Below, piece by piece: positions 25,091-58,162 of a stretch of 64,000 bases of DNA. The notes under the pieces are model-generated. The model did no database searches. It saw nothing but the letters and a program-made list of their open reading frames with translations, and had not been told where the DNA came from. How positions within the stretch are numbered: the stretch's first letter is position 1; every line of letters starts with the position of its first letter. Source of the DNA: Sulfurovaceae bacterium (GTDB lineage: Bacteria; Campylobacterota; Campylobacteria; Campylobacterales; Sulfurovaceae); NCBI GenBank assembly GCA_016744805.1, contig JADGDQ010000003.1, positions 1-64,000 of the forward strand, in the 5' to 3' direction. The position numbers were made by a program, and so were the translations under genes.

Positions 25091-25624
25091 TTAGGATAGT
25101 TCAAGAATTTTAATATTATGATTTGTATAGATACAGAGGTCTCCTGCAATATGCAAAGACTCTTTAACTAATTCATCTTCTGAAAGATTTGAGTGTTTTT
25201 CTAATGCTCTAGCAGCAGAGATAGCATAATTTCCTCCAGAACCAATAGCTGCAATTATGCCATCTTCTGGTTCTACAACATCTCCTGTGCCTGTAAGTAT
25301 AAATATATGGTCTCTATTGAGTACAATCATCATAGCTTCAAGTTGTCGGAGATGTTTGTCTTTACGCCATGCTTTAGAGAAAGCAATCACAGAGCGAAAG
25401 AGGTCTCCTTTTTTTTCGTTAAGAAAACCCTCAAACATATCAAAAAGCGTAAAAGCATCTGCTGTACTTCCTGCAAATCCACCTAATATTTCACCATGGT
25501 GGAGTGTACGAATTTTGGTTGCATTTCCTTTAAGGACAGTATCACCAAAAGTTACCTGTCCATCACCACCAATGACTGCTTTATTCTTGCCTTTATAGGC
25601 AAGTATGGTTGTAGCATCAAACAC
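25091..25624 (-). CDS. hslV: HslUV protease peptidase subunit
   Basis: This 177-residue peptidase normally starts at a catalytic threonine after processing. Here the start is [20 protein letters not shown], so Thr5 or Thr6 would be the N-terminal nucleophile after removal of a short propeptide. The motifs GDGQVTFG and [14 protein letters not shown] are characteristic. Its ATG overlaps the rplI stop by one base. Confidence 0.96.
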
Positions 25625-26070
25625 TATACTGCTACCACTTCAACTTTAAGTGTTGCATGTATGCCATGTCCTAATTTTGCATCTACTTCATGCAAACCTG
25701 TTGATTTAATAGCTTTTTTAAGATTAATGCTCTTTTTATCAAGATCAATATCAAACTGCTCTTTAATAGCTTTAGAGATATCAGCATTTCCTACAGATCC
25801 TTGAATTCCTACAGGTGCTGTAGGTTTTTCAATACGAATAGTAACCTCTTCAAACTTTTTTTGTTCTAGAGCATGTCGTGCCATATCATCTTTGAGTTGT
25901 TGTGCTACTCTCTCTTGTTCTTCTTTCCAGTTTGCAACTACAGCAGGTGTTGCAATTTTTGCAAATCCTTTTGATACAAGAAAGTTTTGACCATAGCCAT
26001 CTTTAACTTCTTTAATCTCTCCTGCTTTTCCAAGTGTTTTTACATCTTTAGTTAATAGTACTTTCATCAT
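25624..26070 (-). CDS. rplI: 50S ribosomal protein L9
   Basis: This 148-residue protein has the L9 signature in its first 40 residues, [20 protein letters not shown] followed by [14 protein letters not shown] long connecting helix (about residues 45-75) and a C-terminal rRNA-binding domain ([17 protein letters not shown]) follow. The length is typical. It is the first gene of the rplI-hslV-hslU-era unit, and it diverges from the hydrolase gene. Confidence 0.97.
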
Positions 26071-26192
26071 TTTATCCTTAATGCTAATATAATATTTTTC
26101 TTATTCTACCAAGTTTTTATCAATTTGGTGTGAAAAAAGATAAAATTATGGTAAAATTATCCTCTTTTTATCTCACTACACAATGGCAAATA

Positions 26193-26921
26193 ATGGCATC
26201 CAAAGAAATATATTATAAAAATCAATCTTTTACTATCTCTTATCAAATAGTAAATCCATCACAAACACCCTCTATTCTGATTTTACATGGTTGGGGAAGT
26301 AATAAAGAGATTATGAAAAACTCTTTTGGACAAACTCTCTCTGAGTATAAACATATCTATATTGATATGCCCGGTTTTGGAAAGAGTAGTAATCCTATGA
26401 TACTCCAAACGAGTGACTATACAGCTATTATTAAACTATTTTTAGAAACGCTTAATGTTAATATAAAGATTGCTATGGGACACTCTTTTGGAGGTAAAGT
26501 AGCTACACTTTTGGATACACCTTATTTGGTGCTTCTCTCTTCATCAGGTGTTTTAGTACCAAAGGCATTTATAGTCCGTTGTAAAATAGCACTCTTTAAG
26601 ATGCTCAAACCCCTAAAACTTGATAAGTTTCAACAACTTTTTGTTAGTAGTGATGCAAAGGGTATGAGTCAAGAGATGTATGAGACTTTCAAAAATGTAG
26701 TCAACGAAGATTTTGAAGAGAATTTTATAAAAAGCAAAAGTGAGTCTTTACTCTTTTGGGGTAAAGAGGATACGGCAACACCACTCTATTCTGGCAAAAG
26801 AATAGCACAACTTATCAAAAAGAGTCACTTCTATCCTCTCGATGGAGACCACTTCTTTTTTGTAAAGCATAATGCATTTATTGCTCAAACTATTATTAAT
26901 ATTTGTAAGGAATCAAACTAA
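26193..26921 (+). CDS. Alpha/beta-hydrolase fold protein
   Basis: This 242-residue hydrolase has the oxyanion-hole motif LHGWGSNKE (about residues 31-39), a nucleophile elbow GHSFGG with Ser98, and a C-terminal histidine in DGDHFFFVKH. The substrate is unknown. I chose the ATG at 26193 (MASKEIYYKN) because the residues before it look like non-coding upstream DNA; in-frame starts at 26130 (GTG) and 26148 (ATG) are alternatives. Its stop overlaps the murF ATG (TAATG). In C. jejuni a hydrolase gene also lies next to murF, so a cell-envelope role is plausible but unproven. Confidence 0.82.
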   Translation: MASKEIYYKNQSFTISYQIVNPSQTPSILILHGWGSNKEIMKNSFGQTLSEYKHIYIDMPGFGKSSNPMILQTSDYTAIIKLFLETLNVNIKIAMGHSFGGKVATLLDTPYLVLLSSSGVLVPKAFIVRCKIALFKMLKPLKLDKFQQLFVSSDAKGMSQEMYETFKNVVNEDFEENFIKSKSESLLFWGKEDTATPLYSGKRIAQLIKKSHFYPLDGDHFFFVKHNAFIAQTIINICKESN

Positions 26922-28336
26922 TGATCTATCTAAACCTCTTAAGCTATCTTCTATTTATCGCTATGATTGGATATTACTTTATTGTGAATATGCAATGGTA
27001 TAATTATAAAATAGAGAGAGTTATCTTCCATCATACAAAAGTTTGGTGGCATTTTGTCTATTTTCTTATTCCTTTTATTCTTTTTGAATTTGTCTCTGCT
27101 GTAACCAATAAGCATTACGGATTTATTGTAGTTTTACTCTATCTCCCACTTTTTATTTTATGGTATAAGGGAATAGATAAAAAATTAGTTTTTACAAGAC
27201 GAGTTAAAAGGTTTTTTGGTTTACTCTTTTTGTTTGCTATTTTTATTACTTTTTCTTTTGAGTTTTTTACAATATTTATTCCTATTTTATTGGCATCTCT
27301 TATCTCAAGATTTATTGAAACTATGCTTTTTGATGGATTTAAGAAGAGTGCTAAAGAAAAAATTGAGAATATGGACAAACTTATTGTGATAGGTATTACC
27401 GCAAGTTACGGAAAAACAAGTATCAAAAATTATGTAGAGCATATACTCCAATCCAAATATAATACTTACGCAACACCTCGGTCTGTTAATACTTTAGGTG
27501 GTGTTGTCAAAGATATTAATAATGATTTACCAAGTGACACAGAGGTTTATGTAGTTGAAATGGGTGCAAGAGGCAAAGGTGATATTGCAGATATAGCTAC
27601 TTTGGTCAATCCTCACTATGTTATTGTGGGCAAAATAGGACCTGCACATATAGAGTATTTCAAGACTATGGAGAATATTCGTAATACCAAAATGGAGATT
27701 TTACAGACAAATCGTCTGCAAAAAGCATGGATACATGAGAGTGCAGTTATTAATCCTATAGAAAATATTTATCAATTTGGTAAAGATATTACAGATATAA
27801 AAGCCTCTCTTGATGGTGTGAGTTTTACTTTGGAAGGGGTGGAGTATCATGCAAATGTATTAGGTGAGTTTAATGCTATGAACCTAGCAGCAGCTGTAAA
27901 AATATCAAAGATTTTAGGTATTGAGGATGAAACCTTACGACAAAGACTTAATACCCTCAAAGCCGTTCCCCATCGTCTACAACGCATAGATGCAGGTGGA
28001 AAGATTATACTTGATGATAGTTTTAATGGAAATATTGATGGCATGATGGCTTCATTTAAACTTGCAGATACTCATAATGGACGCAAGGTTATTGTCACCC
28101 CTGGACTTGTTGAAGTGGATGAAGCACTTAATATTCAAGTTGCTCAAAAAGCAAATGAAATATTTGATGTAGTAATTGTTACAGGAGATCTTAACTATGC
28201 AGTTTTTAAAGAGTATATTGATGCAGATAAACTTCATAAACTCTCTAGTAAAGCAGATATGGAAGAGATGCTTGTGACACAAACAATAGCAGGAGATTTA
28301 ATTCTCTTTGCTAATGATGCACCAAGTTTTATTTAG
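26921..28336 (+). CDS. murF: UDP-N-acetylmuramoyl-tripeptide--D-alanyl-D-alanine ligase
   Basis: This 471-residue Mur ligase adds D-Ala-D-Ala to the peptidoglycan precursor. The ATP-binding motif GITASYGKTS is at residues 158-167, followed by TPRSVNTLGG and VVEMGARGKGDI. Near the C terminus are ILDDSFNGN and VTPGLVEV. It differs from E. coli MurF by about 140 extra N-terminal residues with four hydrophobic segments, a membrane-anchored form seen in this phylum. It is translationally coupled to the hydrolase gene. Confidence 0.92.
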   Translation: MIYLNLLSYLLFIAMIGYYFIVNMQWYNYKIERVIFHHTKVWWHFVYFLIPFILFEFVSAVTNKHYGFIVVLLYLPLFILWYKGIDKKLVFTRRVKRFFGLLFLFAIFITFSFEFFTIFIPILLASLISRFIETMLFDGFKKSAKEKIENMDKLIVIGITASYGKTSIKNYVEHILQSKYNTYATPRSVNTLGGVVKDINNDLPSDTEVYVVEMGARGKGDIADIATLVNPHYVIVGKIGPAHIEYFKTMENIRNTKMEILQTNRLQKAWIHESAVINPIENIYQFGKDITDIKASLDGVSFTLEGVEYHANVLGEFNAMNLAAAVKISKILGIEDETLRQRLNTLKAVPHRLQRIDAGGKIILDDSFNGNIDGMMASFKLADTHNGRKVIVTPGLVEVDEALNIQVAQKANEIFDVVIVTGDLNYAVFKEYIDADKLHKLSSKADMEEMLVTQTIAGDLILFANDAPSFI

Positions 28337-28449
28337 TTAATCATAAATAATAGCTAAAATAAAATTCTAAAAGGTCACTATTTCTTTTAAATCATTATGC
28401 TAAAATCTTTAATAGTTTATATGGTTGTTGATTAATAAGGAAATATACT

Positions 28450-31400
28450 ATGGAAATAATTTTAAGTGTAAATGAGACAAGAATAGTATCAAGTAGTGAA
28501 CATCAAGAGATTACTATTGAGGATGTTTTATTAAAGAGACTAGAGGCTTATAATTCAGAGTACCAAAGTATCAAACAAAATTCCGATAACGAGAAGCTAT
28601 TGGCATTGGGGAAAAAGCTTTTTCAAACTTTTGCTACGATACTCTCGTTGGATACTTGGCTCAATGCTTCTTCTACTAAAAAACTAGAGATTGTAAGCTC
28701 AATCACCCCAAATAATTTAGAAATTCTTTTACTCTCTTTGCCATGGGAGATATTGGCAACTGAGAAGGGTTATTTGGCAGAAGATAGACGACTCTTTGAA
28801 GTGATACGACGCATTGAATTTGCAAATGAAAATATAGAAGAAGCCCAATATAGTGATATCACACTTACCTTTATGGCTTCTGACCCAAACTTTGAGAGTG
28901 GTTTACAGTATGAGGTAGAAGAGAGAGTTATTTTGGATGCTGTACAAAAACACAAAAACTTACATCTAGTAGTAGAAGAGAGTGGGAACTTAATTAGTCT
29001 TCAAAATCGTCTGTTTGATTTGGGTCATTGTGATATGGTACATCTCTCATCTCATGGGGCTTTTGATGGAGATGATTATGTATTGATATTAGAGGATGAC
29101 CGCTTTAATGTAGAGATAACAAAAGCAGAGGACTTTAGATATTTAAGCACTATTATAAAAGCTCTATTCATATCGGCATGCCATAGTGCAGAGTTTAAAA
29201 ATAGAAAAAACATGGCAGTAGATATGGCTTCAATAGGTATTGCAAATGTTATTGGTTGGGATGGTGCAGTAAAAGATGAAGATGCTACAGAGTTTACAGC
29301 ATCTTTTTATAAATATCTACAGCTAGGCTCTTCTTTGTCTTCTGCTAGTGCAGGTGCACGCAGTGATATGTTACAACAAAATAGAAACGATTGGCACTTG
29401 GCTAGAGTCTATCTAAACGCCCATGGTGGCAAAGGTCTCAATAGTAGAATGGGTAACAAGAGTCCTAAAAAAAGGTATCAAAAAGTTCACAAGATTATAG
29501 ATGCTCAAAAAGGTGGAATCAAAGTAGCTAGTAGAGACTCTTTTGTCGGTCGTAGAAGAGAGACAAAAAGAGTACACCATGCATTTGACAATGAAAAATC
29601 CGTGCTTCTCTATGGCTTGGGAGGAACAGGAAAATCAAGCTTGGCAGTACGGATAGTAGAACGATTAAATCCGCCCTATACAGCTCTTTTTATCTATAAA
29701 AATTATGACTATTTTGCTTTGTTAACGGCTATAGAAAAAGAGGTAAGCAGAAATTATCCTGATTTGAATTTTTCTGAACTTATCAATAGTATACGAGAAA
29801 ATCCAAGCAGACTCTATCATACATTAGTAAATCTTTTAGAGAATAATTTAGATGAGTATCCTATTGTTTTGGTTATAGATGATTTGGAGCAGTATGTTTT
29901 AGAACCTCTTGCAAGAGGAGAAGATGATGTGATGGTCAAAGCAGAGTATCAGCTATTTTTTCAGAGTGTTATCTCTGCTTTTGAAGATGCAGAGACACAA
30001 TCAAAACTTCTGTTGACTTCTCGTTATAAATTTAAAATGGCTGATAGTAGCGATGGCTACTTAGACAAAATCAATGTCCCTGATATGACTAGGTCAGAAC
30101 AGATCAAACACTGGCTAGCAATTTCTAGAGATAATATATCTGATTTGGATGAACAAGAACAGTATCTTAGTAGAATATTTGAAGTCTCTAGAGGAAATCC
30201 AGGATTGCAAGATGTTTTGTTTGCACCCTTGGACAAAAAAGAGTTCACAACGCTAGAGTTGGCACTCAATAAGCTAGAGAGCTATCATATTGATGCGTTA
30301 AGTGAGAATAAATTGATAGGTGTAGATGATATAGACAAATACCTACAACGCATTGCACTAGAGATCTATCGTGATGCTTTGACAAAAACAGAGTTATATC
30401 TACTGACTATTTTAACTATCTTTAATTTTCCTATTCCCAAAAATCTTATAGCGTTATCAGCAGAACAGTTAGGCATAGATAATCCCCAAAAAGCACTTAC
30501 AAGGCTTGATAATTTTGGACTTATCAATCATCTCCAAGGAGAAGGTGTAGAGAACCATATCTCTTGTTATGGTTTGGTTTATAAAATAATAGAACCTCTC
30601 TCTGATCAAGATAGAAATGATATTGCTCAAATTACAATAAAACACTTATGGGATATTTGGTTTGGTACTCTGCTTAGAGAGAGAAACAACATAACTCTAA
30701 CTATAGACGATATAATGAATAAAGATATACTTCTTAACGAAGAAAGCTATTTAAATACTCTATTTAGTTCTAAATTGGAATACCAAAGATTAAATTTTTT
30801 ATATGATCTATGTCTATTGAATAATTTGATAAATTGGGATGAAGTAGGTGTGGAAAATATAGAATTCAAACAAATATTTGAGCTGATGTTATCTCTAAAT
30901 GCACTAACAAAACTCCAAATTTTGACTATGACTTTGTTTAATAAAATATCTGCACAACAGATAAAAGGAATTTTATTAGTCTCCATAGAGGAAATAACAA
31001 AGTTTAAAGAATCATTACCTAATGAGTCTATGATATTATCAGATTTAATTTTTCAACGATTTTCTTTTCGACCTGATTTAATGAAAAAGATGTATAATAT
31101 CTATTTTCCAGAATATTCGGAAGTGGAACACCGATTGTTACAAGAGATGAATAGTGATAGTGAAGAGAAAAAGCATATCACTATGATAGAACTTTCTAAA
31201 AATAATCAAGAGTTAGCGTCTAATCTTGGAAACTATGCAGTGTTCTTAACAGATAATCTCCAAGACTACCCAAAAGCCAAAGAGATGTATGAGAGAGCTT
31301 TAGAGGCAGATCCAAAACACGCAAATATTCTTGGAAACTATGCACACTTCTTAACAAATAATCTCCAAGACTACCCAAAAGCCCAAGAGATGTACGAAAG

Positions 31401-32298
31401 AGCGATAGAGGCAGATCCAAAACACACAAATATTCTTGGAAACTATGCACACTTCTTAACAAATAATCTCCAAGACTACCCAAAAGCCCAAGAGATGTAC
31501 GAAAGAGCCATAGAGGCAGAGCCAAATCACGCAAACAATCTTGGAAACTATGCTCTCTTCTTAACAAATAATCTCCAAGATTACCCAAAAGCCAAAGAGA
31601 TGTATGAGAGAGCTTTAGAGGCAGAGCCAAAACACACAAACAATCTTGGAAACTATGCACTCTTCTTAAAAAATAATCTCCAAGACTACCCAAAAGCCAA
31701 AGAGATGTATGAGAGAGCTTTAGAAGCAGATCCAAAACACGCAAACACTCTTGGAAACTATGCACTCTTCTTAAAAAATAATCTCCAAGACTACCCAAAA
31801 GCCCAAGAGATGTACGAAAGAGCGATAGAGGCAGATCCAAAACACGCACACACTCTTGGAAACTATGCACACTTCTTAACAAATAATCTCCAAGACTACC
31901 CAAAAGCCAAAGAGATGTACGAAAGAGCCATAGAGGCAGACCCAAAACACGCAAATAATCTTGGAAACTATGCAAAGTTTTTATTGGTTAAAGCTGAGTC
32001 CAAGAGAGGGATAGAGCTACTAGAGCAAGCAGAAAAAATTAAAGAGATTCATAATGATTTGGCTGTAGAGTTGGCTTTTTATAGATATGCTCATGTCCAG
32101 CCATACGATTTACAAGCTCTAAAGAGATTAATGCTAGAGGGTAGTAGATCTGTTGGCTGGGATTTGAGTATGAATGTAGCTAAAGCTGTAGAAGACAATC
32201 ATCCAGATAGTGATATGTTAATGATGATAGCAGATGTAATCAGTGGCAAAGAAGAGATAGAAAGTTTAAATAAATTTCTAAAGTGGAATAAGGATTAA
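28450..32298 (+). CDS. CHAT protease-like / STAND NTPase / TPR-repeat protein
   Basis: This 1282-residue protein has three parts. Residues about 80-340 form a CHAT (caspase-like) domain, with the predicted catalytic pair His202 in HLSSHGAF and Cys244 in FISACHSAEF. Residues about 365-620 form a STAND/NB-ARC-type NTPase, with Walker A GLGGTGKS (389-396) and Walker B VLVIDDLEQ ending near 480. A helical linker follows. Seven 35-residue TPR-like repeats occupy residues 926-1170, with a degenerate eighth after them. The combination is that of signal-responsive conflict proteins in which ligand binding to the repeats activates the effector through the NTPase. It sits between murF and lysS and overlaps neither. 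A small partner gene follows after one base. No CRISPR locus is nearby, so a type III-E role is not supported. Confidence 0.85.
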   Translation: MEIILSVNETRIVSSSEHQEITIEDVLLKRLEAYNSEYQSIKQNSDNEKLLALGKKLFQTFATILSLDTWLNASSTKKLEIVSSITPNNLEILLLSLPWEILATEKGYLAEDRRLFEVIRRIEFANENIEEAQYSDITLTFMASDPNFESGLQYEVEERVILDAVQKHKNLHLVVEESGNLISLQNRLFDLGHCDMVHLSSHGAFDGDDYVLILEDDRFNVEITKAEDFRYLSTIIKALFISACHSAEFKNRKNMAVDMASIGIANVIGWDGAVKDEDATEFTASFYKYLQLGSSLSSASAGARSDMLQQNRNDWHLARVYLNAHGGKGLNSRMGNKSPKKRYQKVHKIIDAQKGGIKVASRDSFVGRRRETKRVHHAFDNEKSVLLYGLGGTGKSSLAVRIVERLNPPYTALFIYKNYDYFALLTAIEKEVSRNYPDLNFSELINSIRENPSRLYHTLVNLLENNLDEYPIVLVIDDLEQYVLEPLARGEDDVMVKAEYQLFFQSVISAFEDAETQSKLLLTSRYKFKMADSSDGYLDKINVPDMTRSEQIKHWLAISRDNISDLDEQEQYLSRIFEVSRGNPGLQDVLFAPLDKKEFTTLELALNKLESYHIDALSENKLIGVDDIDKYLQRIALEIYRDALTKTELYLLTILTIFNFPIPKNLIALSAEQLGIDNPQKALTRLDNFGLINHLQGEGVENHISCYGLVYKIIEPLSDQDRNDIAQITIKHLWDIWFGTLLRERNNITLTIDDIMNKDILLNEESYLNTLFSSKLEYQRLNFLYDLCLLNNLINWDEVGVENIEFKQIFELMLSLNALTKLQILTMTLFNKISAQQIKGILLVSIEEITKFKESLPNESMILSDLIFQRFSFRPDLMKKMYNIYFPEYSEVEHRLLQEMNSDSEEKKHITMIELSKNNQELASNLGNYAVFLTDNLQDYPKAKEMYERALEADPKHANILGNYAHFLTNNLQDYPKAQEMYERAIEADPKHTNILGNYAHFLTNNLQDYPKAQEMYERAIEAEPNHANNLGNYALFLTNNLQDYPKAKEMYERALEAEPKHTNNLGNYALFLKNNLQDYPKAKEMYERALEADPKHANTLGNYALFLKNNLQDYPKAQEMYERAIEADPKHAHTLGNYAHFLTNNLQDYPKAKEMYERAIEADPKHANNLGNYAKFLLVKAESKRGIELLEQAEKIKEIHNDLAVELAFYRYAHVQPYDLQALKRLMLEGSRSVGWDLSMNVAKAVEDNHPDSDMLMMIADVISGKEEIESLNKFLKWNKD
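31225..31959 (+). repeat. Seven tandem 105-base repeats coding for TPR units
   Basis: Seven in-frame units of exactly 105 bases begin at 31225, 31330, 31435, 31540, 31645, 31750 and 31855, and an eighth (31960) diverges after about 15 bases. Each begins CTTGGAAACTATGCA and encodes LGNYAxFLxNNLQDYPKA. Differences are confined to a few codons (for example V/H/L at unit position 6, T/K at 9, K/Q at 19, L/I at 26, D/E at 29). The near-identity at DNA level indicates recent duplication or gene conversion. Confidence 0.95.
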
Positions 32299-32299
32299 A

Positions 32300-32653
32300 A
32301 TGAAAAAAATAGAAATAAGTATACCTGAGAATGAACAGAGATTAGAGTCAGCTATTAAAAGCTTTGTTTTAGAAGAGTTTAGAGAAGATGCACAGTTTAG
32401 TATAGACAGCATATCCCCTGAACTCAAATACAAAGACCCTACAATAGGTGAGATAGGTTGGATAACACTTCAAGTAATAGCAACCGTAGAAGGATCTCTA
32501 CAATTTTCTGAGCGAATAGGACGCGTAGAGAGAGTCAAAAAGCTTATGAAAACGATTAATGAAGTAGGAAAATCTGTATATGTTAAAATAGGAGAAGCTG
32601 ATATAATTGATTTACTAGGAATGGATATTGATGATATTATGAATATTTTATAA
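32300..32653 (+). CDS. Small partner of the CHAT-STAND-TPR protein (unknown; possibly EACC1-like)
   Basis: This 117-residue protein starts one base after the CHAT gene stop, so the two are co-translated. It has no signal peptide or membrane segment. The pattern is an N-terminal strand (MKKIEISIPENE), a helix with acidic residues, a loop DPTIGEIGWITLQVI, an amphipathic segment ERIGRVERVKKLMKTI, and a final strand YVKIGEADI. Size, position and the central GE(I/M)G-type motif recall the small effector-associated constant components described for STAND conflict systems, but I cannot confirm this. No catalytic motif is evident. Confidence 0.75.
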   Translation: MKKIEISIPENEQRLESAIKSFVLEEFREDAQFSIDSISPELKYKDPTIGEIGWITLQVIATVEGSLQFSERIGRVERVKKLMKTINEVGKSVYVKIGEADIIDLLGMDIDDIMNIL

Positions 32654-32662
32654 ATTAAGTTA

Positions 32663-32698
32663 TCTCAGTAAAAATCTATAGAATAATTTTCACTGAGA
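32663..32698. terminator. Bidirectional terminator-like inverted repeat between convergent genes
   Basis: TCTCAGT (32663-32669) pairs with ACTGAGA (32692-32698), extended by an A-run and a T-run inside (AAAAAT / ATTTT) with one bulge. It lies between the stop of the small partner gene and the stop of convergent lysS, where a shared terminator is expected. Short A/T tracts flank it on both sides. Confidence 0.55.
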
Positions 32699-32717
32699 AA
32701 GAGACTAACTTAGGATT

Positions 32718-34355
32718 TTATTTCTCCATCATTCTCTTTTTACAAGCGACACCATCTATACAAAACATCCCTTTGCCTTTTTTGGCAGGTTTTAGCTCTT
32801 CTATATTTTCGTTCCCACATTTTTTGCATTTATTCTCATCTGAAACTACAATAGTTACAGGTTTTGGTGCTTCTGGTTTCATAGCAGGAAAGAGCAGAAC
32901 ATCACGAATAGTGTGTTGGTTTGTAAGCATCATCACAAGTCTATCTATCCCTATCCCTTGCCCTGCTGTTGGGGTCATACCATACGAGAGAGCATTTACA
33001 AAATCTTCATCCATCTCATGGGCTTCATCATCACCAGCATCTTTTGCAGACATTTGCCCTTGGAATCTTTCTAGTTGATCAAGAGGATCATTAAGCTCAG
33101 AAAAGGCATTGGCTATCTCTTTGCCTGCCATAAAGAGTTCAAATCTCTCTGTTACTTCTGGGTTAGCATCACTTCTTCTAGCTAGAGGACTAATCTCTAC
33201 AGGATAATCAGTAATAAAAGTAGGATCTATTAGTTTTGCTTCTACAAACTCATCAAAGAGTTCACCTTGAAGTTGTCCTAGATTGAGGTTTGGTTTTATT
33301 TGAATATTTTGTTCTTTACAATAAGTATAAATACTCTCTTTACTATGACAAATATCAGCAGGAACGCCACCTACTGTAGTCAAACTCTCTACAAGTCCTA
33401 TCTCTGTAAAGTTATCAAAATTAATCTCTATATCACCATAAGGTAAAATTTTTGGAAGTTTAAGATGTTCAAAGAGATATGCAAAATACTCTTTGGTAAG
33501 CTCTATAAGGTCTCTATATGTTTTATATGCCCAGTAAAACTCTATAGATGTAAATTCAGGATTGTGTGTAGCATCCATCCCCTCATTTCTAAAGTTTCTA
33601 TTTATCTCAAAGACTGCTTCAAATCCACCTACAATAAGTCTTTTAAGATAGAGTTCTGGTGCAATTCGTAGATACCTATCAATCCCCAAAGAGTTATGAT
33701 GAGTAACAAATGGCTTGGCATTTGCTCCACCTGCAATAGGGTGCATCATAGGGGTTTCAACCTCCAAAAAGCCTCTATCTTCAAAGAATCTTCTTGTAAG
33801 CGATATAACCTTACTTCGTGTTTCAAAAGTCTTTTTAACATCAGGATTCATAATTAAGTCTAAGTATCTTTGTCTATATCTTAGTTCTTTATCTTTGAGT
33901 CCATTAAATTTTTCAGGAAGAAGAGAAATAGCTTTGGTAACTATTTCAAATTTTTTACAGTGTAGCGTAAGCTCGCCAGTTTGCGTAACAAATGGATAAC
34001 CTTCAGCTACAACTATATCACCTACTTCAATAAGCTTTTTAACTTTGTTATAATAGCCTTCTGGTAAATCATCTCTATTATAATATATCTGAACAAGACC
34101 ATCACTATCTTCTAGTTTAGCAAAAGCAGCTTTACCCATTATACGGATAAATTTAAGTCTTCCAGTAAGTCTATATGTCTTGTTCTCATCTTTCTTTTCA
34201 TCAGCATCTAGCTCTTTGATATATGCACATTCATCTAAAAATTGTTTAGAGGGTGTGCCTTTTTCTATTTGGTTTGGATAAGGGTTAAAACCCTCTTCTC
34301 GTAACTGCTGTGCTTTTTTTATTCTCTCTTGGATATATTGATTATCAAATATCAA
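32718..34355 (-). CDS. lysS: Lysyl-tRNA synthetase (class II) with C-terminal cysteine-rich tail
   Basis: This 545-residue enzyme charges tRNA-Lys. It has an N-terminal OB-fold anticodon-binding domain (about residues 60-150) and class II motifs: motif 1 around [15 protein letters not shown], motif 2 [14 protein letters not shown], and motif 3 GIGIDRLVM. The typical family end ([13 protein letters not shown]) is reached near residue 495. About 45 further residues follow with a CxxC...C...C pattern ([22 protein letters not shown]), resembling a zinc ribbon. The enzyme usually stops at about 500 residues, so the tail is an addition. It follows fur, as in Campylobacter. Confidence 0.95.
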
Positions 34356-52141: not shown

Positions 52142-53302
52142 TTATCCTGCTATCATCTGCATAGCTTTGCCCACAGCCAAGCCTCCAAAAGTTCCTAAAA
52201 TGTATCCCATCATAGCCATCAATACTCCTATAGGAATAAGTGACTTAGAGTAAGCTCCTGCAAGTATTGGAGCAGAGGCTACGCCTCCTATATTTGCAAG
52301 CGAAGCAACTCCTAGTGTAAATAAATCCAACTTAAATATCTTGGCAAACACAAGCATTATTATCCCATGAATAGCAATAATCATAAATCCTGCCACTACA
52401 TACAAAGGTGCCTGTGTAAGTTCTGAAAAATTAGCACGAGAAGCAATCAGAGCCACCATAAGATAGAGCAAAATATTACCTAGTTCACTCGAACCTGCCA
52501 TTTTACCAAAAGGAGTCATAGCAAAAATTATCCCTATAATTGTAGTAATAATAACAACCCAAGTATTTGTTGTTACAAAATTATTGATAGGAAGATAAGG
52601 AGCAATAGTTTGGCTTATAACAGAAACCAAAAGAGCCATACCAAGAAGCAAAAAAAGTGAATGAAACGAGATAGCTTCTGTAGTTTTTGCCAAAGAGAGC
52701 TTTTGACCCACTGTTTCAAGCGTAGATGTATCAGCATTACTCCAATGGTTAAATCTATGTGCCAAAGGTACAAGAGCCAAAAGAAGCATAATATATACAG
52801 AGTAATTTATAGAATCTATAAGCAGAGCATAGCCCATCTTGCTATCTGGCACAGCTAATGCACTCTGAATAGCTACCATATTAGCAGTCCCCCCCATCCA
52901 GCTTCCACACAAAGCCGAAAAAGCTCTCCATGCATCAGGTTCAAAGAGATGTTCTAAAAAAGCAAACATCCCAATAAATCCTATGGCTATACTAACTGTA
53001 GCTAGCAAAAAAGTAAAAACCATCTTTATACCCAATGCTCTAATCTGACGCAAATCAGCATGTAATAAAAGCAAAAAAATCATTGCAGGTAAAATATTAG
53101 ATTTAACACTCTTATAAGTAGCCGTAATCTCTACACTCTTTTGCCATACTCCTAGCGTAGAAAATACCATAGCAGTAAAATAGATAATTACAATAGCAGG
53201 TAAATACTCAAATATTTTCCATTTATAATACTCTTGTGCATAAACAACCAACGAAGCAATTACAATAAGCACAGTAATATATGCAAATCCATTTTCTATC
53301 AT
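52142..53302 (-). CDS. DUF819-family membrane protein
   Basis: This 386-residue protein has about 10-11 membrane segments. Conserved stretches SALCGSWMGGTANMVAIQSAL and GVASLANIGGVASAPILAGAY are typical of DUF819/YjcL proteins, thought to be transporters of unknown substrate. Its ATG overlaps the stop of the HpaII-type endonuclease gene by 4 bases, so it appears to be the last gene of the restriction-modification string. Confidence 0.85.
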   Translation of the reverse strand: MIENGFAYITVLIVIASLVVYAQEYYKWKIFEYLPAIVIIYFTAMVFSTLGVWQKSVEITATYKSVKSNILPAMIFLLLLHADLRQIRALGIKMVFTFLLATVSIAIGFIGMFAFLEHLFEPDAWRAFSALCGSWMGGTANMVAIQSALAVPDSKMGYALLIDSINYSVYIMLLLALVPLAHRFNHWSNADTSTLETVGQKLSLAKTTEAISFHSLFLLLGMALLVSVISQTIAPYLPINNFVTTNTWVVIITTIIGIIFAMTPFGKMAGSSELGNILLYLMVALIASRANFSELTQAPLYVVAGFMIIAIHGIIMLVFAKIFKLDLFTLGVASLANIGGVASAPILAGAYSKSLIPIGVLMAMMGYILGTFGGLAVGKAMQMIAG

Positions 53303-54366
53303 GACTTAAACCTAATTTGTAAATTGAGTTTAAAATAATATTTATCATTCTCTTTGTAAATATCAAACATTTTATATCTAGTTGAACTTGGACTCTCTAG
53401 CTTAATATTGTCAATCAAATAAGTATCAACAATACTTTTAAAATAAATTAAATCCAACAGATATACTGCACCTGTTTTTGTGACTATAATAATACCACCA
53501 TTAACTTCATTGATTCCATCCCAAGCTTCACTTGCTCTCATGCCAAATGTTACAGCATTCGCAAAATCACCTATTTTCTTTTTGTAATAAATTTCAGAAG
53601 TTGTATCATTAATGATAGATACCAATAATTTTTTAATATCTTTTTCATTGTCTTCATAAGATAAAATTAACATTTGAGCTAAAATTTTATCTAAATCAGA
53701 ATCAATCAGTTTTAAATTATTAGCAAAGAGAGTACTTTCGGTTTGAATAAACTTAAAAACTGCTCCATTTGATTTTAGAAAGTTACATCTATCTAATAGC
53801 TTTTTTCTACCCTTAATAATATTATTTTGTTTCATTATTTCATCATCTATATTTTCTATTTCATAAATAAAATTTGTATGCCTAGAGGCGTTTAAAAGTG
53901 TAGGAGGGCTTCCTAGATTAGATTTAATATTGTATGTTAAATTTATACTCATTTCTCTTTTTTTATCCAATACTCTAGCACTTAAGTCACCCTTAGTTTT
54001 TGAGCTTCCTTTAAACTTTTTACCATCAAGAAAGTCATTAATGAAAGGTTCTATTTCCTCTATCTCAAATGAACCTTTTGATTTTTTGTGAGTCATAATT
54101 TTTTCTAATAACAACTCTTTTTTCTCTTTGATAGTATCAATTAAATAGATATTTTCAATATTATTAGCTCTTATCTTAGTGATATTTTTATCTTTTTGAA
54201 TTTTATATCTTCTATTATCTGCGAGGTATATCTCTCTAATTTCAAAAGTATTAGTATTTATCACTTTTAGATGCGCATCAGTTATTGCTAAATTTGGATA
54301 AATCAAAAGTGTCAAAAAAGTATAAAGTTCTGACCATTCACCTCTATTAAATCCCATAATTTTCAA
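53299..54366 (-). CDS. HpaII-family type II restriction endonuclease
   Basis: This 355-residue protein has the family opening GFNRGEWSELYTFLTLLI and the family end TPSSTRYKMFDIYKEND-type text with YYFKLNLQIRF. HpaII cuts CCGG. It overlaps the methyltransferase gene by 20 bases, forming a methyltransferase-endonuclease pair on one strand. The target CCGG is inferred from the family. I did not assign catalytic residues. Confidence 0.85.
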   Translation of the reverse strand: MKIMGFNRGEWSELYTFLTLLIYPNLAITDAHLKVINTNTFEIREIYLADNRRYKIQKDKNITKIRANNIENIYLIDTIKEKKELLLEKIMTHKKSKGSFEIEEIEPFINDFLDGKKFKGSSKTKGDLSARVLDKKREMSINLTYNIKSNLGSPPTLLNASRHTNFIYEIENIDDEIMKQNNIIKGRKKLLDRCNFLKSNGAVFKFIQTESTLFANNLKLIDSDLDKILAQMLILSYEDNEKDIKKLLVSIINDTTSEIYYKKKIGDFANAVTFGMRASEAWDGINEVNGGIIIVTKTGAVYLLDLIYFKSIVDTYLIDNIKLESPSSTRYKMFDIYKENDKYYFKLNLQIRFKS

Positions 54367-55453
54367 ACTCCGCTAATTGTTTATACATATATTTTGCTAA
54401 CTCTTCTATCACTGGTATTGAAACAGAATTGCCTAATTGCTTATACTGTTGTGTTTCACTTACTTTTTTTGGAAATGAAAAAGTATCTTTGCCATCTTCA
54501 ACAAAGGCATAATCTTTAAAGCCTTGCAGTCTTGCCCATTCATTTGGAGTCATAACTCTAATACCTTGGTCATTGATAGGTGTCTTTTTTGTACCAAACA
54601 TCATCCCATAATATTCTGGTTTTTCTTGTAAGACTAAATTTCGCTCTTTTCCACTTCCACCTGTGGCTAAAATAGTATTTGAAATGGGGTTTTCTCCAAT
54701 ATTTACTACTTTGTAGCCAAAACCATTGCCTTTAGATTGATGGTTGGCTTTGTGTTTTTCTAATGTTTTAATATACTGTTCTGATAAGTAATATTTGGCA
54801 GATACATTCTCTTCTAACAACTCATATAAATTATTAAAAATAGGTTTATCTTTTTTAGTAGGGAGTTCTTTAAATTTGTAATTATTAGGTACTAAATCTT
54901 TTCTAAATCCCATAATATAAGTCCTAACTCTTTTTTGTGGCAGTCCAAAATCTACAGTTTTTCTTAAAAATGATTTTGAATCATAGCTTAGAAGACCATC
55001 AATATCTTCTACTCCCACAATTTCATATCCCAACTCTTTGACCAAAGTATCTATAATAATTTTAAAGGTTTTCCCTTTATCATGCCGAAAGAGTCCTTCT
55101 ACATTTTCTAATAAAAAGGCTTTGGGTTGTGTGCGTTTGAGTATATCAGCCACATCAAAAAAGAGTGTACCTCTTGTGCTATCTTCAAAACCTCTCTTCT
55201 CTCCTGCAATAGAAAATGCTTGACAAGGAAAACCAGCAAGTAAAATATCATAAGATAAATTTTGAACTTTTTCTTTAAACTCTTCACTTCTAACATCATT
55301 AAGTGGATTTTCTCCATAAAGATGTTCATAAGTCATACAAGCATATTTATCAATTTCTGCTGATAAAATATTTTCATACTCCCCTACCCGTTCAAATCCT
55401 TTTCTCACCCCACCAATCCCACAAAAAAGATCTATAGTTTTATATTTTGTCAT
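54347..55453 (-). CDS. DNA cytosine-5 methyltransferase (HpaII partner)
   Basis: This 368-residue C5 methyltransferase has motif I DLFCGIGGVRKGFE, motif IV with the catalytic cysteine in GFPCQAFSIAG, motif VI ENVEGLF, motif VIII QKRVRTYIMG, and motif X QLGNSVSIPVIEELA. All are intact. It is paired with the HpaII-type endonuclease, with the endonuclease gene starting inside its 3' end, so CCGG is the expected site. It lies one base after the other C5 methyltransferase gene. Confidence 0.93.
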   Translation of the reverse strand: MTKYKTIDLFCGIGGVRKGFERVGEYENILSAEIDKYACMTYEHLYGENPLNDVRSEEFKEKVQNLSYDILLAGFPCQAFSIAGEKRGFEDSTRGTLFFDVADILKRTQPKAFLLENVEGLFRHDKGKTFKIIIDTLVKELGYEIVGVEDIDGLLSYDSKSFLRKTVDFGLPQKRVRTYIMGFRKDLVPNNYKFKELPTKKDKPIFNNLYELLEENVSAKYYLSEQYIKTLEKHKANHQSKGNGFGYKVVNIGENPISNTILATGGSGKERNLVLQEKPEYYGMMFGTKKTPINDQGIRVMTPNEWARLQGFKDYAFVEDGKDTFSFPKKVSETQQYKQLGNSVSIPVIEELAKYMYKQLAEFENYGI

Positions 55454-55454
55454 A

Positions 55455-56429
55455 CTAGAACACCTTTTTTATTGCCAATGCCAAAGCATACGCCAAAGTA
55501 GGAGGCACAGCATTCCCCACCATCTTATATCCTGCACTTAAATTTTTGTAATAAAAAAGATGTTCATCAGGAAAACTCTGCACCCTAGCACATTCTCTAA
55601 TGCTTAGTCGCCTATATAAATCTTCATGACCCTCTACAAAGCATCGTTTATCTTTTTCTACAAGTTGCATTTTGGGGGCTTGTGGATGAAGTGGTGCATG
55701 TCGTCCTCCTGCTTGGATAGTAAATGATGGTTCATCCCAAGCCCTCACACGATTACGAGACATAAACATAGAAGAAAATCCACCTAGCATATATTCATGA
55801 TTTAGGAATTTACATTTATCAAGAGTATAATTTTTTTCATCTGCTGAGACCACATTATCTTTTAAATCCCAAATAATGTCTTTCAATGTCAATTTTTCTT
55901 TTTGTCCTTTTGGAAACTCAAACTTTATATTTAAATCATTTCTAAAACCCACAAAAAATATTCTCTTTCTATCTTGTGCCACCCCATAATCTTTAGCATT
56001 AAGCATCTCAAAAGACAAATCATAACCACTATCAATAAAATGATTTTTGATATTTTCCAAAGCTTCACTATGCTTTGAAGCCAACATACCAGATACATTT
56101 TCAGCCAAAAAAAACAGAGGCTTCTTATCTCGCAACACACGAATAAACTCAAAAAAGAGTTGCCCTCTATCATCATCTATCCCACGAGATTTACCAGCCT
56201 CACTCCAACTCTGACAAGGAGGCCCACCAATCAGCCCTAGAGTTTCAGGAATATCCTTCGATGGAATTTGCGTAATACTCCGTCTATCCAAAACCGTATC
56301 AGAAAAATTCTTCTCAAAAGTTTCCCAAATTTCTTTATCATACTCATTTGCCCAAATGGTTTGAAACCCTGCTTTTTTGAAACCAAGGTCTAAACCACCT
56401 GCTCCTGAGAATAGGGAGATTATTTGCAT
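55455..56429 (-). CDS. DNA cytosine-5 methyltransferase (NgoPII-type partner)
   Basis: This 324-residue C5 methyltransferase has motif I SLFSGAGGLDLGFKKAGF, motif IV with the catalytic cysteine in GGPPCQSWSEAG, motif VI ENVSGML, motif VIII QDRKRIFFVG, and motif X GNAVPPTLAYALA. It starts immediately after the AbiJ-like gene stop. By family it should protect GGCC, matching the NgoPII-type endonuclease two genes upstream. It is distinct from the HpaII-type methyltransferase that follows. Confidence 0.9.
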   Translation of the reverse strand: MQIISLFSGAGGLDLGFKKAGFQTIWANEYDKEIWETFEKNFSDTVLDRRSITQIPSKDIPETLGLIGGPPCQSWSEAGKSRGIDDDRGQLFFEFIRVLRDKKPLFFLAENVSGMLASKHSEALENIKNHFIDSGYDLSFEMLNAKDYGVAQDRKRIFFVGFRNDLNIKFEFPKGQKEKLTLKDIIWDLKDNVVSADEKNYTLDKCKFLNHEYMLGGFSSMFMSRNRVRAWDEPSFTIQAGGRHAPLHPQAPKMQLVEKDKRCFVEGHEDLYRRLSIRECARVQSFPDEHLFYYKNLSAGYKMVGNAVPPTLAYALALAIKKVF

Positions 56430-57311
56430 TTAATCTTCTTTATTTTTTGCTATCAAATAATTCACAAATGCTGAACAGCTTACAAGCATATATTTAGCCT
56501 CTTCAAATGAAGTTTTTAACTCTTCTTTTGTGTGTCCATGTCTAATTCCATCTTCTTTACAAGTCCAACCATAGAGATTTATCATTGAAGTTTTAAACTG
56601 CTTATTCAAATCTATATCTATAATTTTTAAACAATTTGCTAAATCTGTCTCTTTTCCTGTGATAATCTTAGCTACAGACTCTACAGCAGTAATAGACTCT
56701 TTAATAGAGTTTTGATAATCAGGATTTTCTCTATCACTTAAAAGCTCTAAGGCATTTGATAGATGTTTTCTTGCAGGGGTATACTTACAACATAAAGCCT
56801 CTTCAACTTCTTTAATTTCAACCTCATCAATAATTGGAGCAATATAACTATCTATAAATCTATATCCACTCATCTCTTCTTCTAAAATCTGATTTACCTC
56901 TTCTCTAAATTTAGTAGAAATTTGTTGTTCATGATATATTTCTGATATATATTCTATAAAGTCATAAACTTCATACCATTCAAAATTAAAATATCTTTTT
57001 TTCAAATCTTTTTTGATGTTATTTTTTGAATATGATAAAGGTTCAATAGAGTCTTTTAAAAATTGGTCATAAATTTTTAAAACAAAATATTTATCATTTT
57101 CTTGCCTAAGTAATCCACCCTCTGATTCATAATAATTATCACGATCATCTGAATGCAAGACCATAGAGTGCTTATATCCTATAAGAGTATCAATAAATGT
57201 TATTTTTATTTTATTCCATAATCTACTTTTTAATCCATTATCCATACTATCAATTTGAAATGTATCTCGTACTTCTATAAAACCATTTCTTTCAGAAAAT
57301 CTTTTTCTCAA
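56430..57311 (-). CDS. AbiJ-like (abortive-infection) protein
   Basis: This 293-residue protein opens with FSERNGFIEVRDTFQIDSMD, matching the AbiJ N-terminal domain type 4 (FSERxG...QIDSMD). The C-terminal third contains ALCCKYTPARKHLSNALELL, SIKESITAVESVAKIITG and DGIRHGHTKEE, the pattern of a helical C-terminal abortive-infection domain with RxxxH-like text (RHGH), possibly a HEPN-type nuclease motif. It lies between the NgoPII-type endonuclease and its methyltransferase with gaps of 11 and 0 bases. A defence role is likely; mechanism unknown. Confidence 0.8.
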   Translation of the reverse strand: MRKRFSERNGFIEVRDTFQIDSMDNGLKSRLWNKIKITFIDTLIGYKHSMVLHSDDRDNYYESEGGLLRQENDKYFVLKIYDQFLKDSIEPLSYSKNNIKKDLKKRYFNFEWYEVYDFIEYISEIYHEQQISTKFREEVNQILEEEMSGYRFIDSYIAPIIDEVEIKEVEEALCCKYTPARKHLSNALELLSDRENPDYQNSIKESITAVESVAKIITGKETDLANCLKIIDIDLNKQFKTSMINLYGWTCKEDGIRHGHTKEELKTSFEEAKYMLVSCSAFVNYLIAKNKED

Positions 57312-57322
57312 TTTTTCTCCAT

Positions 57323-58162
57323 TTATATTCTAAACCCTAACAAAACCCCATCAACCAACCTCACAGGATTATTAGGATTCTTTATTTTAACTTCTCTCAC
57401 CTCAACACTCTCCATATTCTCAATAATCTCTCTATCATTTTTTGGCATACTATTATATTTTTCTTTTGTCATCAAAGCTATTAACTGAAATGATTTACTC
57501 TCATCATACTCATAGAGATAATCAAAAGTTTTATTTGGATTTTCAATATGCCACATACCTCTAATTCTAAGGTCTGTAATACCTAAAGGGTCTATTTTTT
57601 TGACTTTTCCTAGTTCATTTGTGGGTGTGAATTCTACATTTTCTATAGCGTTGATGCCGTTTGATATAGTATCCTTTATCTTCTCATAAGTCTCTTTATC
57701 TGCACAAAAACAATCTCCATAGACAAGCCAAAGAGATTTTAGATTTTTGGTGGCTTTGGGAATATGACCAATGGCATAGAGCATATCTTTTTGTGTCCAT
57801 GTTTCACACTCTTTACACGCTTTGGTTATCATTGTGCTAGAGGCATAGAGTTTGTCTTTGGGGTAAGAGCTATTTAGAGCTATGGCTGAATTTTTACTCT
57901 CTAGCTTTTTTATCTCTATAGCATCGCTATTTTTGAGGATTAAATCAGGTGGATTATTTTTATTTCCTTGATATGAAAATATCTCTTGAAATATTTCTAA
58001 TTTTTGAGCTGTTTCTTTAAAAGTATTGGCAAAGGCATTTTGGATATAGTTTTCTAAACCCTCACCCATATTATTAGCTCTATTGTTTCCACTTGTAATT
58101 GTTTGAATATTATATTGGTAGTTATTGACGATATTTATAAACGCTTTGAGTGTATTTGACAT
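57323..58162 (-). CDS. NgoPII-family type II restriction endonuclease
   Basis: This 279-residue protein matches the NgoPII family in length and in the opening region (NNMGEGLENYIQNAFANTF). A PD-(D/E)xK-like site is seen in NNPPDLILKNSDAIEIKKL. CKECETWTQKDMLYAIGH follows. NgoPII cuts GGCC. It is the first gene of the restriction-modification string. The recognition site is inferred from the family. Confidence 0.85.
   Translation of the reverse strand: MSNTLKAFINIVNNYQYNIQTITSGNNRANNMGEGLENYIQNAFANTFKETAQKLEIFQEIFSYQGNKNNPPDLILKNSDAIEIKKLESKNSAIALNSSYPKDKLYASSTMITKACKECETWTQKDMLYAIGHIPKATKNLKSLWLVYGDCFCADKETYEKIKDTISNGINAIENVEFTPTNELGKVKKIDPLGITDLRIRGMWHIENPNKTFDYLYEYDESKSFQLIALMTKEKYNSMPKNDREIIENMESVEVREVKIKNPNNPVRLVDGVLLGFRI

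Follow-up and report, generated by a model that had tools for sequence, protein, structure and literature searches.

The 64,000-nucleotide stretch of contig JADGDQ010000003.1 of a Sulfurovaceae bacterium (hereafter the window) carries two adjacent genes with a total length of about 4.2 kb. The first gene, located at 28450-32298 (+), encodes a 1282-amino-acid protein, P0001, which combines a caspase-like CHAT domain, a STAND-type nucleoside triphosphatase (NTPase) and an array of TPR repeats. The second gene, at 32300-32653 (+), is separated from the first by one base, encodes a protein of 117 amino acids, P0002, and is taken to be co-transcribed with the first. The pair is flanked by murF upstream (+) and by lysS downstream (-), the latter being convergent with the pair. 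An earlier note on this DNA, made from the sequence alone, was exact with regard to the coordinates, the length of the large protein, the one-base gap and the downstream open reading frame (ORF).

The CHAT domain of P0001 occupies residues about 54-314 (28609-29391, +; PF12770, E 1.8e-14) and contains the predicted catalytic residues His202 (29053-29055, +) and Cys244 (29179-29181, +). The STAND NTPase with its winged-helix part extends over residues about 356-740 (29515-30669, +). Pfam assigned AAA_16 to residues 365-481 (E 3.9e-12), while the match to nSTAND1 (E 5e-6, 26.7 bits) was just below the cut-off of 27.1 bits. The features characteristic of the STAND superfamily are present: Walker A (GLGGTGKS, 389-396), Walker B (D477/D478), a sensor arginine (R525), a GxP-type motif (GNP, 582-584) and a winged helix. 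His202, Cys244, G389, G391, G392, G394, K395, D478, R525 and G582-N583 do not vary among 24 relatives belonging to several phyla, while S396, D477 and P584 are nearly invariant. Pfam TPR_17 was detected in seven stretches of the protein (E 3e-31). The three domain assignments and the positions of the catalytic pair and of Walker A, as proposed in the earlier note, were thus confirmed by Pfam, by Tandem Repeats Finder and by conservation. The only PADLOC match of P0001 was to mad8 (E 0.0016); no match was obtained in a sequence search of PDB, and no informative one in PHROGs.

An AlphaFold2 model of residues 1-740 was built from 24 sequences (predicted local distance difference test, pLDDT, 72.4; predicted template modelling score, pTM, 0.65). 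In a Foldseek search against PDB, the switch half of this model matched CED-4 (4m9s, E 1e-9), the NB-ARC domain of tomato NRC1, Apaf-1, Avs3 (8dgc) and a TPR-bearing archaeal STAND protein (6mfv). A caspase-like fold had been named beforehand as the test of the CHAT assignment, and the protease half indeed superposes on the activated SAVED-CHAT filament 8tl0 with a root-mean-square deviation of 3.0-3.7 A over about 200 columns. Whole-chain template modelling scores were low because each PDB target spans one half of the model only. Judged from sequence and model, P0001 is a CHAT protease with intact predicted catalytic residues, coupled to a STAND switch of the apoptosome type whose ATP-binding motifs are intact.

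The TPR array (31222-31974, +) comprises 7.2 copies of a 105-bp unit, corresponding to 35 amino acids, with 92% matches between the copies, which marks it as recently amplified. The ratio of nonsynonymous to synonymous differences (pN/pS) among the units is 0.33, indicative of purifying selection. Ten of the 35 positions vary across seven units. In TPRs, positions 2, 5, 9, 12, 13, 33 and 34 are ligand-contacting and hypervariable (Magliery and Regan; PMC1261162). With the register set by hand in the usual TPR numbering and a single inserted residue allowed close to the helix turn, five of these seven groove positions vary as compared to 5 of the other 28 (p 0.012). This pattern fits a binding groove but is not evidence of adaptive change. 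Between relatives of P0001, the TPR portion diverges widely. An antisense open frame of 251 amino acids (31220-31975, -) lies opposite the array; it is a by-product of repeats and codon usage and not a gene candidate.

In a sister species, whose MurF is 91% identical, the site is empty: only 12 bp lie between murF and lysS, in contrast to about 4.4 kb in the window, and the TAG of murF abuts the lysS stop. The sister locus (L114) aligns to window positions 25420-28339 and 32737-34218, so that its sequence passes directly from 28339 to 32737, and the segment 28340-32736 has no counterpart there. The view of the earlier note that the pair is inserted between two housekeeping genes agrees with both the flanks and the sister genome. 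No target-site duplications or terminal repeats were found at the insert ends. The base composition of the pair is AT-rich and resembles the remainder of the window.

A profile alignment of the large protein (A1) was used for searches in genomes and viral contigs. The large protein was found in only one of 397 genomes of the phylum to which the window belongs. In other groups, it was detected in 8/63 genomes of the Cocleimonas order, 3/251 of the Methylovulum order and 5/243 of the order that includes a Desulfobacteraceae genome. Relatives also occur on plasmids, while viral contigs searched with P0001 and A1 gave no match, hence no phage-borne copies were seen. Because of this single occurrence in the phylum and the empty site in the sister species, the pair is regarded as accessory and not as a core gene set; on the genomic comparison, it is a rare, mobile and horizontally acquired unit, gained or lost as a whole. 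Other kinds of CHAT domain are scattered among the relatives (17/149). The sister genome G005 lacks the pair and possesses three other, unrelated CHAT proteins (at L148 and elsewhere), suggesting a quick turnover of CHAT proteins in this genus.

The earlier note had suggested searching for the pair in other genomes; a Thiotrichales genome (G457, locus L107) indeed carries both genes in identical order. This locus contains a CHAT ORF, a STAND-TPR ORF and then a gene for a protein of 127 amino acids, which shares 39% identity with P0002 (E 1e-27); P0002 is therefore a conserved partner, as it had been taken to be. In L107, a frame disruption divides the large gene, and the repeats contain an assembly gap. 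Its CHAT and STAND-TPR parts (L107:4304-7875, -) are read in different frames as ORFs that overlap, and the sequence between these parts looks unrelated, which may reflect either a natural split or decay. Next to this copy is a hipBA-like locus (L107:8058-9676), in which a helix-turn-helix gene lies upstream of that for a HipA kinase. Azospirillum brasilense Sp7 has a comparable arrangement on its plasmid p4, where a CHAT-STAND-TPR gene and a 3' gene for 125 amino acids overlap by 4 bases. That pair (L003:4836-14202) has a recombinase gene on one side and a tniQ/tniB/transposase module on the other, like transposon cargo.

Such gene pairs recall the EACC1-caspase system ('System 4'), a two-gene system of sporadic distribution predicted by Kaur et al. 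(2020; PMC7159879). It consists of a small constant component beside a caspase-superfamily protein with variable C-terminal modules, including STAND NTPases and superstructure repeats; EACC1 was proposed to be a membrane sensor that triggers caspase autoproteolysis (Kaur et al., 2020; PMC7159879). The earlier note had correctly recognized the class, an NTP-dependent conflict system, but missed this named relative, whose small gene lies on the opposite side. The position of the small gene was scored in 80 loci from one A1 genome scan (mostly Nostocales) and in four plasmid loci. An EACC1-like gene of about 108 amino acids was found directly upstream of the large gene in 58 of these 84 loci, in 37 cases within 15 bp, and downstream in two (L003 and L017); many of the loci are close relatives and do not represent independent counts. 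Maximum-likelihood analysis of the large protein groups the window with L107, L007, L136 and Azospirillum in one clade (99/96); the sister of this clade consists of Desulfobacterales forms whose EACC1-like partner is 5' (98/85). This topology, with the 3'-partner clade next to 5' forms, is explained by a single 5'-to-3' relocation. No small partner was seen at L136, and the L007 locus ends at a contig end.

Searches with P0002 itself gave no match in Pfam, NCBIfam, PADLOC or PHROGs, and none among 60 relatives, genome contigs and plasmids when P0002 was used alone as a query. Its single-sequence AlphaFold2 model was uninformative (pLDDT 42). The link to EACC1 is provided by profile comparisons. 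The Pfam EACC1 model matched 5' partners of CHAT-STAND genes from three genomes, each time slightly below the curated cut-off: one of Gemmatimonadetes (E 2e-4 when the protein was searched singly) and two of Thiotrichales (E 6.5e-4 and 1.3e-3 at whole-genome scale). In hhalign, a cyanobacterial EACC1-like set matched the Gemmatimonadetes protein with a probability of 99.8% and the Thiotrichales 5'-partner set with 87%, while the Azospirillum protein P0004 matched the Thiotrichales set with 98.9%. Additionally, the motif DPVAIAALV is common to P0004 and the Desulfobacterales 5' partners. The set of P0002 and the L107 partner (P2fam) aligned to that of P0004, L137 and L138 (P4fam) with a score of 24.8 over 110 columns. 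The L107 partner alone reached a score of 30.5 against the joint set, the best of 120 unrelated ORFs being 17.3, and it was the top non-member among 3052 ORFs for two EACC1-like profiles without common sequences (E 0.033 and 0.052). The 96% match of a combined profile, P2P4, to the Thiotrichales 5' partners was discounted because it is driven by P0004. The highest hydropathy over 19 residues is 1.11 in P0002, 1.67 in the L107 partner and 2.18 (median) in the cyanobacterial EACC1-like proteins. The most plausible view of P0002 is that of an EACC1-like component that has diverged, moved to the 3' side and kept only a weakened membrane helix; the weak central helix makes the role of a soluble regulator or substrate likelier than membrane anchoring.

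Taken together, these data lead us to consider, with moderate confidence, that the two genes form a mobile conflict system of EACC1-caspase type, which resembles the apoptosome and nucleotide-binding leucine-rich repeat receptors (NLRs) but has its own fused protease. The TPR array would bind a trigger, which may be an invader protein or a damage signal. Before that, the repeats would keep the STAND switch closed, by analogy with Apaf-1/CED-4 and NLRs. Binding of the trigger would free the STAND module, allow the exchange of ADP for ATP and lead to the assembly of a ring. This ring would cluster and activate the CHAT domains, as the Apaf-1/CED-4 ring does with separate caspases, and cleavage of host or self proteins by the active protease may then stop the infected cell from growing or kill it. 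Read as a diverged EACC1-like constant component, P0002 most likely binds the CHAT end as a regulator or first substrate. The one-base spacing of the genes argues for a fixed ratio of the two proteins. The helix of the 3'-partner clade is too weakly hydrophobic for the predicted EACC1-type membrane anchoring, and P0002 is therefore probably soluble, or only loosely attached to the membrane, for most of its action.

Several observations weigh against this interpretation. A defence context is not borne out: the pair has no defence genes as neighbours and does not lie in a defence island, and the nearest defence genes, of type II restriction-modification, are about 21 kb away. P0002 is unproven as a plain EACC1 member, having no match to the Pfam EACC1 model. 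The P2fam-P4fam score exceeds those of all 60 column shuffles (best 17.5), yet its probability is just 17%, and the hmmsearch matches of P0002's own profile are weak (E 3.8-8.6). Diversifying selection was looked for among the TPR units but not seen at a pN/pS of 0.33, which leaves rapid adaptive change of the putative sensor unsupported. Most hosts of the described family are multicellular, which the present host is not known to be, and no experimental work on any EACC1-caspase member was found in the literature searched.

Among the alternatives, a toxin-antitoxin-like pair, with P0001 being constitutively harmful and the 117-amino-acid protein its dedicated inhibitor, appears unlikely. The overlapping or abutting genes, the small size of the partner, the sporadic transfer of the module and the hipBA locus next to the L107 module would suit this arrangement. 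However, the small gene of most relatives is EACC1-like and encodes a glycine-rich hydrophobic helix, unusual in an antitoxin; some relatives, such as L136 of the same clade, lack it; and STAND proteins are normally self-inhibited before triggering, as established for Apaf-1 and NLRs. We also regard as improbable that the partner is both substrate and executioner, so that CHAT cleavage would release its hydrophobic helix and cause membrane damage in the manner of a small gasdermin. Bacterial caspase-like proteases do activate genetically linked substrates, both in gasdermin systems and in Csx29/Csx30, and the small-residue-rich helix is conserved in the EACC1-like relatives, as their median hydropathy indicates; the helix of P0002 is weak, that of the L107 partner only moderate, and Kaur et al. 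favour a sensor role for EACC1. A low probability is likewise given to a separate caspase-STAND lineage, in which the EACC1-like membrane component would have become soluble and moved to the 3' side, and would serve the fused protease as first substrate or as executioner, so that two genes would hold sensing, ring assembly, proteolysis and execution. Least probable of all is a housekeeping or stress-signalling host regulator, for which the housekeeping neighbours on both sides, the absent defence island, the window-like AT-rich composition and the existence of STAND/TPR-type transcription regulators such as MalT could be cited, but which accords poorly with the rarity in the phylum, the empty sister site, the copies on plasmids and beside a transposition module, and the intact CHAT catalytic pair.

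Some other features of the window were recorded. An inverted repeat with hairpin potential (32656-32712) lies between the convergent ends of the P0002 gene and lysS; it was rejected as an intrinsic, possibly two-way, terminator since it is not stabler than shuffled sequences (z -1.3). A promoter scan of the locus yielded no more sites than shuffles. No CRISPR genes were found next to the pair. A compact type II restriction-modification cluster at 53299-58162 (-) encodes HpaII-like and NgoPII-like endonucleases and two C-5 cytosine methylases, and a candidate defence protein of the AbiJ_NTD4/PDC-S32 type is located inside it (56430-57311).

If the favoured reading of an EACC1-caspase-like conflict system holds, the pair would be a bacterial equivalent of the apoptosome in compact form, with a caspase-like protease in cis, on a mobile two-gene unit. 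Its carrier is a small-genome, probably single-celled bacterium, while most EACC1 systems were described from multicellular ones. The pair is short and could be moved into a laboratory host, which makes the EACC1-caspase prediction of sensor-triggered proteolysis directly testable. The 3'-partner clade offers a natural comparison for the role of the small constant component without a strong membrane helix.

Among known systems, Avs (AVAST) and bNACHT proteins share with P0001 an N-terminal effector, a STAND switch and a C-terminal TPR-like sensor, and Avs3 was among the Foldseek matches; P0001 differs in having no PADLOC match to an Avs or bNACHT/NACHT family and in the obligatory small partner of the present system. 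SAVED-CHAT of CRISPR type III and TPR-CHAT/Csx29 (Craspase) have the same CHAT protease fold and His-Cys pair, but their activation depends on cyclic nucleotides or on target binding by a guide RNA, whereas here a STAND switch and TPRs are built in. The Apaf-1/CED-4 apoptosome and plant NB-ARC NLRs share the STAND fold and the three-part order of an effector, a switch and C-terminal repeats; in P0001, the protease is fused in cis and not recruited, and the repeats are TPRs, not WD40 or leucine-rich repeats. The EACC1-caspase system has in common with the module a small component adjoining an N-terminal caspase-superfamily peptidase (in P0001, PF12770 with H202/C244 and the 8tl0-like fold), the variable C-terminal module that follows it (STAND and TPR) and a sporadic distribution. 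The differences concern the host lineage, which is outside those listed for the family, and the partner: it lies 3' and not 5', has no clear transmembrane helix with the conserved small-residue patch, and lacks a direct match to the EACC1 model. Because of these partner traits, we do not file the module as a plain member. Gene order varies among the relatives, the small gene being 3' in L003 and L017 as well, and the module has its place next to the EACC1-caspase systems, and probably among them, as a divergent variant with reversed gene order.

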